The notes beneath the pieces were generated by a model. That model was not told the DNA's origin, searched no databases, and worked only from the letters and a program-made list of their open reading frames with translations. From positions 124,001 through 188,000 of the forward strand of contig CALKER010000009.1 in assembly GCA_938084835.1 (NCBI GenBank): a DNA stretch of 64,000 nt. The letters run 5' to 3'. Of the stretch, positions 56,542-61,733 are shown one piece after another. Numbering within the stretch: the stretch's first letter is position 1; the number at the start of each line of letters is the position of its first letter. The DNA is from an uncultured Thermoguttaceae bacterium (lineage in GTDB: Bacteria; Planctomycetota; Planctomycetia; Pirellulales; Thermoguttaceae). The position numbers and the translations under genes are program-made.

Positions 56542-56598
56542 GGGGATTTCAAATGTTTATTACAATCCTCGCGCCTTGCCCGGATACGCCCGAGACAG

Positions 56599-56859
56599 CT
56601 AATGGGGAACAAGCCAAGCCGGCTCGGGGCCCATAAACTTCCCTTCCGCCAGTGGGCAGTCGCCTGAAGTCCTTTTCCACAAGCGTACCCTAAAATCGTG
56701 CCTCAGTTTATTCAAAAATCGCCGTCTCCTCCAGCCCACAAAGTTGAAGAAAGAATCCTCAAGGCCATCGTCCCAGTTTAAAAATCTTGCGCGGCGAAGC
56801 AGCCAGTCAAGAGACCCACTTGAGCCTCGATTCTCAGGCCGAAATTCTCGAAACCTCAC
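56599..56859 (-). CDS. Possible small Arg/Trp-rich protein upstream of the phosphatase
   Basis: An 86-codon frame beginning at GTG 56859, immediately after an in-frame TAA and with GGGAG six bases upstream, ends 57 bases before the phosphatase start. The product is basic and rich in Arg, Phe and Trp (FVGWRRRRFLNKLRHDF). No family is recognised. The ribosome-binding site and adjacency to a real gene favour it, but codon statistics were not computed and the amino-acid composition could be accidental. Confidence 0.3.
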   Translation of the reverse strand: MRFREFRPENRGSSGSLDWLLRRARFLNWDDGLEDSFFNFVGWRRRRFLNKLRHDFRVRLWKRTSGDCPLAEGKFMGPEPAWLVPH

Positions 56860-58912
56860 TTAATTCTCCCGTCGCAAAGCTGAATGAAAAGCTCCGGCAA
56901 GACGGGCCTATTGATGAGGTTAAAGGACAAAAAACTCTGGGTGTCGCGTATGTTGAGGCGGGTTAGGGAAAAGACTCAGCGGCAGAGCTTGTCCAAAGTC
57001 TTGCCTAACCGTGAAGCCTTCATGAAGAACTACCAAATTTGGAAGGAGCGATCGTATACCGACGAGGCAGCTTCGAACGACGGTACATTTAACAACGACA
57101 GTGCTTCAATAAATTAACTTTGTTGATCACCTAAATCAACTTCCGAAACGACGACTCGTCAAAAATGGCGATCCCGCGTCAACTTTTTTCGCCTCTGCAG
57201 GAAAATAACGACGAATAGCCCCAGGAGCCCACTCAAACGGGGGGAAACTCCAGCACAATTTCCTCAAACTGGGGATTCGAGAACAGGCTGTGGTAGGCAT
57301 GTTACGCGTTCGCTTCACTCGCGGGGAAAATTAACATACCCACTTAAAGAGGCGCGTATCGCTTACGGACCGCGGGCGGGACATTGGTGATTTAACTTAC
57401 GCCCTTGAAGGGTCGAGAGTAGAAAACAAAGCACTAAAAATTAGATGGTGAAGCCCGCTCGCCGGGGCGCTTCGGCGTGCTTCGACGAAATCAATTTGTT
57501 TTGGTCATCCTGGGACAATCCTTGGATAAGACTCCTTGAAGACTTACCCTACGGCTGAAATATCGTAGAACGACCCCTCGAGGACTACTCGGGGCTTGCT
57601 TTTTGGGACGTGCCAGTGGCGAACCCATGAGCCGCCCGTGCCGCGGGCCAAATGCCATTGGACTACTGTTTTGAAAAAATAAGCCCTCATTTCTTTGAAA
57701 CGCGATGCGCCGAAAGAGCTACCGCCCCAGGGATTGAAAGTTAGGATCAAATCGGGTGGCCAGGACAGTTTGTGCCCGCTCGATGTGCATTGTGGGACAG
57801 GCAGGCTAGTAACCGCCAAACCGTAAGTAGATACCGTTAGGAAGATGAGCTGGGAACGCCTCCTACCACCAGGTGATCGGCCGTTGAGGACTGGAAATTT
57901 CCCGCCACTGGAGATGAAAAAACATGGCCGGGGATCTCCGCCCTCCCGTTTCGAACCTGCCACGCCTCTCCCGTTAGATTATTTCGCCGTAAGCAGCGGA
58001 GTAACCGTTTTGGGGCTTCCTTAACACTTGCCCGAAAGCAAACCGGCGAAAGTGTTACCGGCCGGCCTCCTTCAGTGCGGACTCTAGCGGGAGACCCCTG
58101 CCCCGCGTAGAAACGGGTGGGAGATCCCCGGCACTCACTGCCCCTTCGCCACCTGCGGATATGCCCCTACCCGTTTTGGGCCGCCCCTTTGGTGTTGCCG
58201 GAACCTTGCCGCTCCGGCAGCTCACTACTCTATTTTTCCTTTGCCGAGGTAGACTGCCCAGCACGGAAAAGAGGAAATTTGAGCCAGGTGGGACATAACT
58301 TGGGCAACCAATCGGTGATTAGGGATAGAACACGCGTCATTTTTGCCCTTTCACAAGAAAACCCTCGGAATCACCTAGGCCCATCGCAAAGCACCGGCAG
58401 GAGGTTCGTAAGGCCACCCATTAACCAGTTCGCCTGCACTTGGAACTTGTCTTAGCAAAAGATCGGGCCAACCTGCAGGTTTTAGAGCTAAGCATTGTGC
58501 AACGGTTAAACGTCATGGTTGCTGAGCCGGTTTGCTTAACTTAGGAAGCTAAGGCGCAGCTGCCACCAGGGGTTATTACCCCGGCTCATTTGCCTCGGGA
58601 AGCGGAATCACTCGGTATAGCGCGAAAAATCCTCGTGATTTAGAGGGAGCCTGCAGCACTCTCCGGAAGCGCAAGACTTGAGCCAACCTCTATCCACTTA
58701 CCGATCCACCGGCTACCCAGGGGGCAACAGCTGTGGGGTTCCGTCGCCGGAAATGTCCTGGGAGCAAGGTGAGCCAATTGCCACCCTGCATGCCCGCCAA
58801 GTTCCGCCCGGTCCGCTAAAGCAGGGACAAAGCTCCACCCCTCAGGGCTTTGGCCGCAGAGGACAGACCAGAACGCAAGACCGGAACGAATAGCCCCAAC
58901 CCGCTTGAGCTC
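56860..58912. other. 2-kb gene-poor stretch
   Basis: The longest stretch without a supported gene. It holds several overlapping open frames on both strands with no recognisable family. The most protein-like pieces are a plus-strand 77-codon basic frame (56884-57117, no ribosome-binding site) and a stop-interrupted reading at 58422-58643. I saw no complete tRNA; a T-loop-like string near 57950 lacks a matching stem. Confidence 0.55.
58422..58643 (+). pseudogene. Possible decayed coding fragment
   Basis: In one plus-strand frame the reading VLAKDRANLQVLELSIVQRL, then VMVAEPV, a TAG (58542-58544), then EAKAQLPPGVITPAHLPRE and ESLGIARKILV, ending at TAG (58641-58643), looks like a helical protein interrupted by a nonsense codon. 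No start codon with a ribosome-binding site is evident and I do not recognise the family. It could be chance. Confidence 0.25.
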
Positions 58913-60796
58913 CTAGTTACCACTGGTCCCCTCCTCCGGGATGGACATGCCATCACATGACCGGGTACCGGTCCCTGGCTCCTGGGAGTGGTACGTTCGC
59001 GATAGGTAGTACACATGCCGCCGATATGTAAACAGCCTCTGACCGGTTTCCGCATCCCATACAATGACCGTGCCGTCCGATGAGGCGGTGACGATCCGCC
59101 GTCCGTCAGGACTGAAGGCCGCAGAGCGCACCTGATCGCTATGCCCCTCGAGCGTAAGAAACTTTCGGCCACTTGCCGCATCCCACACAATGGCCGTATG
59201 ATCCGATGACGCGCTGACGATCTTCTGACCATCAGGACTGAAGGCTGCGGAGTAAACAAAACCGGTGTGCCCCTTGAGTGTTAGTAGTGGCCGGCCACTT
59301 TCTGCATCCCACACCATGGCCGTCTTATCGTCCGAGGCGGTAACAATCCGCAGGCCGTCGGGGCTATAGGCTGCAGACATCACCGGAGCGGTATGGCCCC
59401 GGAGGGTCAAAAGCCCCTTGGCACTTGTGGCATCCCACACCATGGCCGTGGTGTCCGCGGAAGCGGTAACGAGCCTTCGCCCGTCAGGACTGAAGGCCGC
59501 AGTCAGGATCGGCGCGGAATGCGCCCGAAGGGTAAGGAGCGATGTACCAGTTTCCGTGTCCCACACCATGACCGTCCCGTCAAGCGCGGCGGTGACAATC
59601 CACAAGCCGTTTGGACTGTAGGTCGCAGAAAGGACGTGACTGGCATGGCCCTGGAGTGTCAGCAGCTTCTGCCCATTTACCGAGTCCCACACCATGGCTG
59701 TGCTATCCTCTGACGCGCTGACGATCGTACGCCCGTGGGGACTGTAGTTCGCACAGTAGACATCGCCGCTATGCCCCCGGAGCGTGATCACCGGCTCACC
59801 CTTTTGCACATCCCATACGAGGACTGTCCCACCGTCCGCGGCAGAGACAATCCACAGGCCGTTAGGACTGTAGGCCGCAAAGTTGATGCGCACCTTACGC
59901 ACTGGCTGAAGCGGCGGGAGAGCGCTTCTTACAACCGCTAAATCAAAATCGGGGAAATTCCCTCGCATCATGGGGTTTTGAGTACGATCCAGTGTTGCTA
60001 CATATTTTTCCGTAGATTTCGTGGCATACCTCGCCCACTCTGCAAGCGTAACAGTGCCACTTTCATTCAAATCTGCCTCGCCTTGCAAACCCTCAAGCAA
60101 ATAGTGCATAAAAACCCCATGCGCAAACTTCGACTCCTCCACCACCCCCTGCCCTGGCGAAGAGCTAACTAAAAGGAGGATCCCCTCGGGTAACACGTCT
60201 GGCACACTAAAGGAAACGCCTCGGATTTCGCCCTCCAAATGCCTAGGCACAATTTCTTTGGGTACCGCCGCTTCATCCTGCGAAGCATCCACCACGAAGA
60301 GTTTCCACTTTGCTCGACTATCCTGCATAAGCCGGTAGACGACTTCCACCGCAATCAAGTGCGAGGGATCCATCTCTGCATCCGCCGGACAGAGGTAGCT
60401 CGTGCCCTCCAAACGCACTCCGCGGCCAGAAAATACAACGAGGACTAGGTCGTTCGGCCCCGCCGCCTCCAATGTCAACCGTACTTGACGTTCGATATTG
60501 GCCTTGGTCGGATAGAGGCCAATCGGCGACTCCTCGTGCAACACCAAAACCCGCTCAGGGGTAAAACCACCATGGATCAGTGCCTCGCCCAAGGCCTGCA
60601 CATCCGCACTACAGTAGGTACGGTCGGACTTAATGTGGTGATATTTGTCCACACCTATCAGAACTGCCCACCGCGCTGGATCCGGGATAACCGGTTGGTG
60701 TTCAGCATTCCACCTCGAGCGCGAACAAGCACCGGGTAACGTTAACCCCATAACAAGCCCGATGAGGCAACCAGCCCTCGATGAGACTGAGCGCAT
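58913..60796 (-). CDS. Lipoprotein with catalytically dead caspase fold, EF-hand loop and seven WD40 repeats
   Basis: 627 residues from ATG 60796, which follows GGAGGG; the frame is open 44 codons further but without a site. A lipobox L20-P-G-A-C24 predicts a membrane-anchored exported lipoprotein. Residues ~40-290 match the bacterial caspase-like (peptidase C14) fold: WAVLIGVDKYHH, FSGRGVRLEG, YLCPADAEMDP, VVDASQDEA. The expected catalytic His (FSGHG) is R125 and the expected Cys (DACR) is S172, so proteolysis is unlikely. D242-x-N-x-S-x-T...E253 fits a canonical EF-hand loop. Residues ~300-600 are seven WD40 units of 42 residues (SPDG...VWD), a complete propeller. It is monocistronic. A scaffold or sensor role is inferred. 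Confidence 0.9.
   Translation of the reverse strand: MRSVSSRAGCLIGLVMGLTLPGACSRSRWNAEHQPVIPDPARWAVLIGVDKYHHIKSDRTYCSADVQALGEALIHGGFTPERVLVLHEESPIGLYPTKANIERQVRLTLEAAGPNDLVLVVFSGRGVRLEGTSYLCPADAEMDPSHLIAVEVVYRLMQDSRAKWKLFVVDASQDEAAVPKEIVPRHLEGEIRGVSFSVPDVLPEGILLLVSSSPGQGVVEESKFAHGVFMHYLLEGLQGEADLNESGTVTLAEWARYATKSTEKYVATLDRTQNPMMRGNFPDFDLAVVRSALPPLQPVRKVRINFAAYSPNGLWIVSAADGGTVLVWDVQKGEPVITLRGHSGDVYCANYSPHGRTIVSASEDSTAMVWDSVNGQKLLTLQGHASHVLSATYSPNGLWIVTAALDGTVMVWDTETGTSLLTLRAHSAPILTAAFSPDGRRLVTASADTTAMVWDATSAKGLLTLRGHTAPVMSAAYSPDGLRIVTASDDKTAMVWDAESGRPLLTLKGHTGFVYSAAFSPDGQKIVSASSDHTAIVWDAASGRKFLTLEGHSDQVRSAAFSPDGRRIVTASSDGTVIVWDAETGQRLFTYRRHVYYLSRTYHSQEPGTGTRSCDGMSIPEEGTSGN
58992..59893 (-). 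repeat. Seven ~126-bp WD40-coding repeats
   Basis: Within the lipoprotein gene, seven 42-codon units (the first slightly longer) encode blades with AxYSPxG or AxFSPDG, IVxAS, and MVWD signatures. Consecutive units are alike at DNA level (repeated forms of CCACACCATGGCCG and GACTGAAGGC on the plus strand), which points to recent duplication or conversion among blades 4-7. Confidence 0.7.
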
Positions 60797-61733
60797 TTCC
60801 CACCCTCCGATCACCACACTTTTCCACCCGGCCCAATTTCGGATTTTGGGCCACTTGCCCAAAAAAGCGTCGCATGGTGTGGCATGGGGTGCATTCAAGA
60901 AGCTACCCGGGCAGGCCCAACCCGTCAAGAAGCCGCAGCTTCTGCCTCAAAATGCGCCGGGCGTGTAAACTCGGAACTATTAATGGAGGGTGACGGAAAA
61001 AGAACCACCCAGCCTACCGCCGAAGCCCAACGCAAACCGCGAGCAGGATCGTGACGTAGCGCGGTATAAAACTTGCACGTGAAGTAAGCCCGCGCGCCTA
61101 GAGCGGGAAGGCAGCGAAAACTTCCCCGAAATGACGGCGGAGGCCATCGCAGGTCTTTCTAAGGACGAGGACCTACCCCGTCATAACGCAAGTGGGGCAA
61201 GCTTGTTCATCTAAGTAGTGTGGGAAAAGCAGCTAATCCTTTGCTCCCCCGAATTCTTTTGTATCCGCAAGACAAGTCTTAAGGCCGCTGCGTAGCACTC
61301 GACCTCAAAAATATGAAACTGATTAGCAAAATTTCACTTTAAGCCCACTTGTGAAAAATCCCATTGTGAAAAAGACCCATATCAGAAGTAACCGTCGTCA
61401 AGGGGGTAAGTCGCCCGAAAACCCGGTAGCCCTCTCCGCCATTGCGGCCAACAAAGAAAAGGGACTGCAGTGTCAGGATAATGACACCGCGTATCGTTGC
61501 ACATTTGTACTTGGGGTTCTTAATCCAGCTTAATCAACCCAATGGGTACGCCGCACGTAATTCATCCCACATAGGTCGCGCCACTACCTAGAAAGGTCTT
61601 GCCGCATTTCACATTATTCATAACCTGCAAAACTGTTGAAAACCCGCCCTAAAGCAAACTAACTCCAAACAAGGGCTATTCGCATTCATCCCAGGAAAAG
61701 CAACCACTTGGGCTTTACCACTTTGTGGGAACG
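60797..61733. other. 0.94-kb spacer between coaC and the caspase-fold gene
   Basis: Both flanking genes are on the minus strand. No gene is supported; a 60-codon plus-strand frame (61351-61533) has no family match. No RNA gene or strong terminator was recognised. Confidence 0.5.

Follow-up and report, generated by a model that had tools for sequence, protein, structure and literature searches.

A gene on the minus strand of the window, by which we mean the whole 64,000-nucleotide stretch of DNA analysed here from an uncultured Thermoguttaceae bacterium, encodes a caspase-fold protein in which both residues of the catalytic dyad are substituted and the fold is followed by a complete WD40 propeller. 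On sequence, structural models and analogy with characterized proteins, we lean towards the view that this is a lineage-specific, non-proteolytic pseudo-orthocaspase with a binding or regulatory role in the periplasm. A scaffold or regulator of this kind is the likeliest of the explanations weighed below, and decay of an orphaned copy is a serious rival.

The reading frame (58913..60796, minus strand; identified from the ORF, its translation and Pfam matches) runs intact from an ATG at 60796 to a stop at 58913 and specifies 627 residues. A GGAGG ribosome-binding site, read directly at 60804..60808, lies 7 nt before this ATG, which we therefore favoured over an in-frame TTG upstream at 60928; that start was rejected. 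All domain coordinates given below, likewise on the minus strand, are computed from the 60796 to 58913 frame. Promoter and terminator scans gave scores no higher than those of shuffled sequences, and searches of the window for Rfam families and tRNAs found none.

A caspase fold with a substituted dyad

Residues 42-242 (60071..60673) match Peptidase_C14 (PF00656) with E=1e-17 and 65 bits against a cut-off of 21.4, the HMM search that the initial annotation had proposed as a check. Since a fold search with the whole-protein model returned propellers only, the caspase domain was folded separately. The resulting model, built from a three-sequence alignment, is of modest confidence (mean pLDDT 60.6, pTM 0.70), too low for active-site side-chain geometry to be read; it superposes on procaspase-7 with Z 17.5 over 205 residues at 3.8 A, and Foldseek pairs it with pro-Sf-caspase-1 at E 4.5e-9. 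The caspase fold claimed at the outset is thus retained in the predicted structure.

Arginine occupies the catalytic His position (R125, codon at 60422..60424) and serine the catalytic Cys position (S172, codon at 60281..60283). Every profile alignment made with caspase domains retrieved from 148 related genomes places H125R and C172S identically, and a direct alignment to plant metacaspase-4 sets R125 on the histidine and FSGRG on YSGHG, so that the double loss described by the initial annotation is borne out. The dyad is His-Cys in 52 of the 68 caspase domains in which both positions could be read, and the Arg-Ser pair is found in the query alone. We compared the protein with 40 His-Cys members at 31 columns, chosen for conservation in 85% or more of the dyad-intact relatives: 26 columns are kept and five are changed (L59R, H125R, L157M, C172S and C212S). 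The claim that every landmark other than the catalytic pair is preserved holds for the loss of the dyad and for most of the fold, but three further positions, L59, L157 and C212, also differ.

Pseudo-orthocaspases are defined by a p20-type caspase domain with one or both dyad residues substituted, together with the lack of a p10 domain, and the first of these is seen here; active caspases, metacaspases and orthocaspases carry the His-Cys dyad where this protein has R125 and S172. The score against the EACC1-associated caspase family NF047832 is 49.6 bits, below the curated cut-off of 140. Because both dyad residues are lost while the fold and propeller are kept, a non-proteolytic protein is likely from the sequence, in agreement with the initial reading. 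We regard continued enzymatic activity, whether with S172 acting as the nucleophile or through a rearranged active site, as very improbable: serine could in principle take that part and C62 and D65 of the pocket are kept, but arginine stands at the general-base position, and the domain has no cysteine after residue 136 and therefore no spare nucleophile near position 172. The retained C62-x-x-D65 is, by our reading, the counterpart of the Cys-x-x-Asp substrate-pocket pair of the type I metacaspase TbMC2 (PMC6426788).

Proteins of this kind and architecture are already known, and planctomycete caspases often lack the dyad; in a 2012 survey just 64% of the caspase homologues of planctomycetes retained it (PMC3501461). 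Bacterial pseudo-orthocaspases have been named and surveyed (PMC6426788), and deletion of one of them, SyOC, gives a phenotype in Synechocystis (PMC7889975). They share with the window protein the p20 fold, a substituted dyad, retained pocket residues and extra C-terminal domains. Those described are mainly cyanobacterial or alphaproteobacterial, with Tyr-Ser, Tyr-Asn or Phe-Ser pairs, whereas the window protein has Arg-Ser, a signal-like N-terminus and a WD40 propeller, a combination that we did not find in the literature surveyed. The human pseudocaspase FLIP(L), which has R315 and Y360 in place of His and Cys and pairs with caspase-8 (PMC7586951), likewise combines the caspase fold with a His-to-Arg change and loss of the Cys; it differs in having Tyr at the Cys position, an intracellular location and death-effector domains, and the likeness is one of working, not of descent.

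N-terminus, EF-hand-like loop and WD40 propeller

Residues 1-24 (60725..60796) are signal-like, comprising MRSVSSR, a hydrophobic core (hydropathy 2.2 over 12 residues) and LPGAC. The initial annotation had read a lipobox here, but with Pro at -3 the motif fails both PS51257 and the strict form [LVI][ASTVI][GAS]C. It had also called an extracytoplasmic location unusual for this fold. By a hydropathy test, which is cruder than SignalP, 36 of 45 rows including the query are signal-like, and in many relatives this segment closes with a typical signal-peptidase motif, AFAQ or LFAEE for example; predicted export is thus the family norm and the location is not unusual. Planctomycete kinases, too, can carry WD40 domains predicted to be periplasmic (PMC11032199).

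At the end of the caspase domain lies an EF-hand-like loop, DLNESGTVTLAE (60038..60073), at residues 242-253 just as first described. It fits the canonical PS00018 pattern and sits between two helices in the model (228-240 and 251-268). When the protein was shuffled 20,000 times, such a pattern arose in 39 copies, a chance frequency of about 0.002. Across the 68 caspase domains, Asp is found at loop position 1 in 55, Asp at position 5 in 54, Gly at position 6 in 50 and Glu at position 12 in 52; Ser at position 5 occurs in the query alone. Judged from these sequences, the loop is a family-wide feature that is weakened in the pseudocaspase, and since it is common to the family it says little about this protein specifically. 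Of the calcium-dependent role put forward initially, the loop itself stands; but dyad-intact relatives share it and the query has lost the Asp at position 5, so that calcium dependence is suggested at most.

The C-terminal region, residues 299-584 approximately (59045..59902), contains seven Pfam WD40 repeats (E=1e-76). In the whole-protein model, built from a three-sequence alignment, this part is confident, with 28 predicted strands, and matches the seven-bladed propeller 7bie with Z 48.9 and 45% identity; the predicted propeller is closed and, as the initial annotation held, complete. Compared pair by pair, the blades show dN below dS in every case, which indicates that the frame has been translated and constrained since the repeats arose, without implying constraint at present.

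Bacterial caspase domains are joined to WD40 more often than to any other partner domain (10.9%; PMC3501461). That frequency, together with the regularity and completeness of this propeller and its closeness to 7bie, would suit an account in which the protein shifted to a WD40-led binding role, the dyad was lost as a by-product and the caspase domain became a passive spacer. We consider this improbable, since a spacer would not need the caspase fold-core positions that have been kept.

Relatives and genomic setting

The nearest relatives are 37-43% identical to the pseudocaspase and all have His-Cys. An orthologue survey at the two catalytic positions, suggested in the initial annotation, therefore gave a divided result: close relatives were found, at no more than 43% identity, but their intact dyads go part of the way to the finding that it said would count against it, namely orthologues showing the change to be a local mutation. 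In the tree the query lies deep within a well-supported set of 15 rows, and its caspase-domain end branch is long (0.96 against a median of 0.36). In the close relatives tested, Pfam recognised FGE-sulfatase, Sel1 or no domain C-terminal to the caspase domain; because these partners differ, the role of the WD40 propeller is unreadable from them. The planctomycete dyad-intact caspases (L064-L072 and L113, with FGE-sulfatase, Sel1 or WD40 tails) belong to the same family, have the EF-type loop and mostly signal-like N-termini, but differ from the window protein in their intact dyad and are at most 43% identical to it. One of them, L113 (2716-5790; G095:C218), has a signal-like N-terminus and a WD40 tail, but with 11 repeats, and is not close in the tree; it is an active-looking counterpart whose WD40 fusion was apparently independent. 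A wider contig search yielded two distant relatives only, and viral contigs one. Tandem caspase domains were seen in L074 (3283-5250), HC then HG, with one domain lacking a dyad residue, and in L050 (1090-3744), HR then YC, with a dyad residue lost from both.

Two other genomes of the genus were sampled, and neither yielded an orthologue. On one side of the gene lies a block containing what we take, from our own reading of the sequences, to be PP2C and MFS genes, and on the other a block with presumed CoaBC and Gmk genes. Both blocks have syntenic counterparts in G002, a genus-mate, where they lie on separate contigs; neither the pseudocaspase nor some 3.3 kb of the DNA around it has a match at the syntenic blocks in genus-mate contigs, and the gene is absent there. 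It thus stands at a synteny breakpoint. The roughly 2.3 kb on its 3' side, at this breakpoint (56542-58912 of the window), contain no convincing ORF or homology, and about 0.9 kb upstream contain no convincing gene. A search of the non-coding flanks in twelve frames for remnants of caspase or WD40 genes, excluding the gene's own upstream extension, gave matches that were all weak and chance-like, with a best E of 0.003.

These features could describe a copy that was acquired recently or orphaned and on which selection is relaxed, its dyad lost by drift, with no specific role and a gene not yet broken. Absence from both sampled genus-mates, the breakpoint at which side blocks align and the gene with its flanks does not, the gene-poor surroundings and the long branch all fit such decay, and with the orthologue missing, the retained role first claimed is at most a possibility. 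Several features speak against decay: the 627-residue frame is intact behind a good ribosome-binding site, the fold-core positions and all seven blades are preserved, and no fragments of related genes lie in the flanks. We treat decay as rather unlikely, though a serious rival.

Elsewhere in the 4.75-Mb assembly that contains the window, Peptidase_C14 has two other matches, both His-Cys. They are adjacent genes (L002 and L003; G000:C6:105804-107452), one with DUF4384 and the other of about 750 residues with an EF-type loop, and a similar adjacent pair occurs in G002 (L098).

A possible role and a kinase-linked group

Sequence or prediction supplies the dyad loss, caspase fold, closed propeller, EF-type loop and signal-like N-terminus from which a mechanism for the favoured pseudo-orthocaspase can be sketched. 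An exported caspase fold unable to cut would instead bind a partner or peptide, and the WD40 propeller would offer a second docking face. The retained C62/D65 pocket may still bind basic peptides; alternatively, the fold may pair with and regulate one of the two dyad-intact caspases on contig C6, as FLIP(L) does with caspase-8. Adjusting the conformation of that fold may be the part played by the EF-hand-like loop, calcium control being the weakest step of the scheme. By analogy, the SyOC deletion phenotype and the pairing of FLIP(L) with caspase-8 count for such a role. The lack of any orthologue that would attest long-term retention without the dyad, the long branch, the changes at L59, L157 and C212 and the different C-terminal partners of the close relatives tested count against it. 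Dead caspases are common in bacterial surveys, and a function is known for very few of them. With just two dyad-intact caspases in its genome, an example that bears a signal and is linked to WD40 would make a simple test case for whether bacterial pseudocaspases regulate active ones.

Within the same bacterial family, an orthologue group represented in 28 genomes (L117-L144; for example G001:C145:14204-17533 and G002:C55:16399-19713) joins a caspase domain to a Ser/Thr kinase. These proteins have about 1,110-1,160 residues, some being cut by contig ends, with the kinase at about 5-280, a transmembrane segment near 300-330 (present in 17 of 17 proteins checked) and the caspase domain, predicted to lie outside the membrane, at about 650-910. 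The dyad is HC in four, altered in 23 and unreadable in one; the altered pairs are HS (7), RG (4), HT (3), HG (2), RS (2) and five single types. From its sequence the group looks like a conserved pseudocaspase receptor kinase. Literature searches with kinase and caspase terms found no description of the combination, a weak indication that it is new. The group resembles the window protein in its mostly lost dyad, including Arg-Ser in two members, and its predicted position outside the membrane, but differs in its fused kinase, in the lack of WD40 in the members scanned and in forming a separate, fully supported caspase-domain clade. Both genus-mates have the kinase-pseudocaspase; a full-length copy was not found in the window's genome, where the best weaker match has E 2e-27.

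The persistence of this group in 28 genomes with caspase domains that mostly lack the dyad, two being Arg-Ser, counts for the pseudo-orthocaspase reading of the window protein. More broadly, this planctomycete family might have turned repeatedly to exported pseudocaspases as a module for sensing or regulation in the periplasm, the WD40 protein and the kinase group having arisen independently with dyad-less folds as ligand-binding outer domains, a generalization that we offer tentatively and hold to be rather doubtful. The kinase-linked orthologue group is large enough for evolutionary tests.
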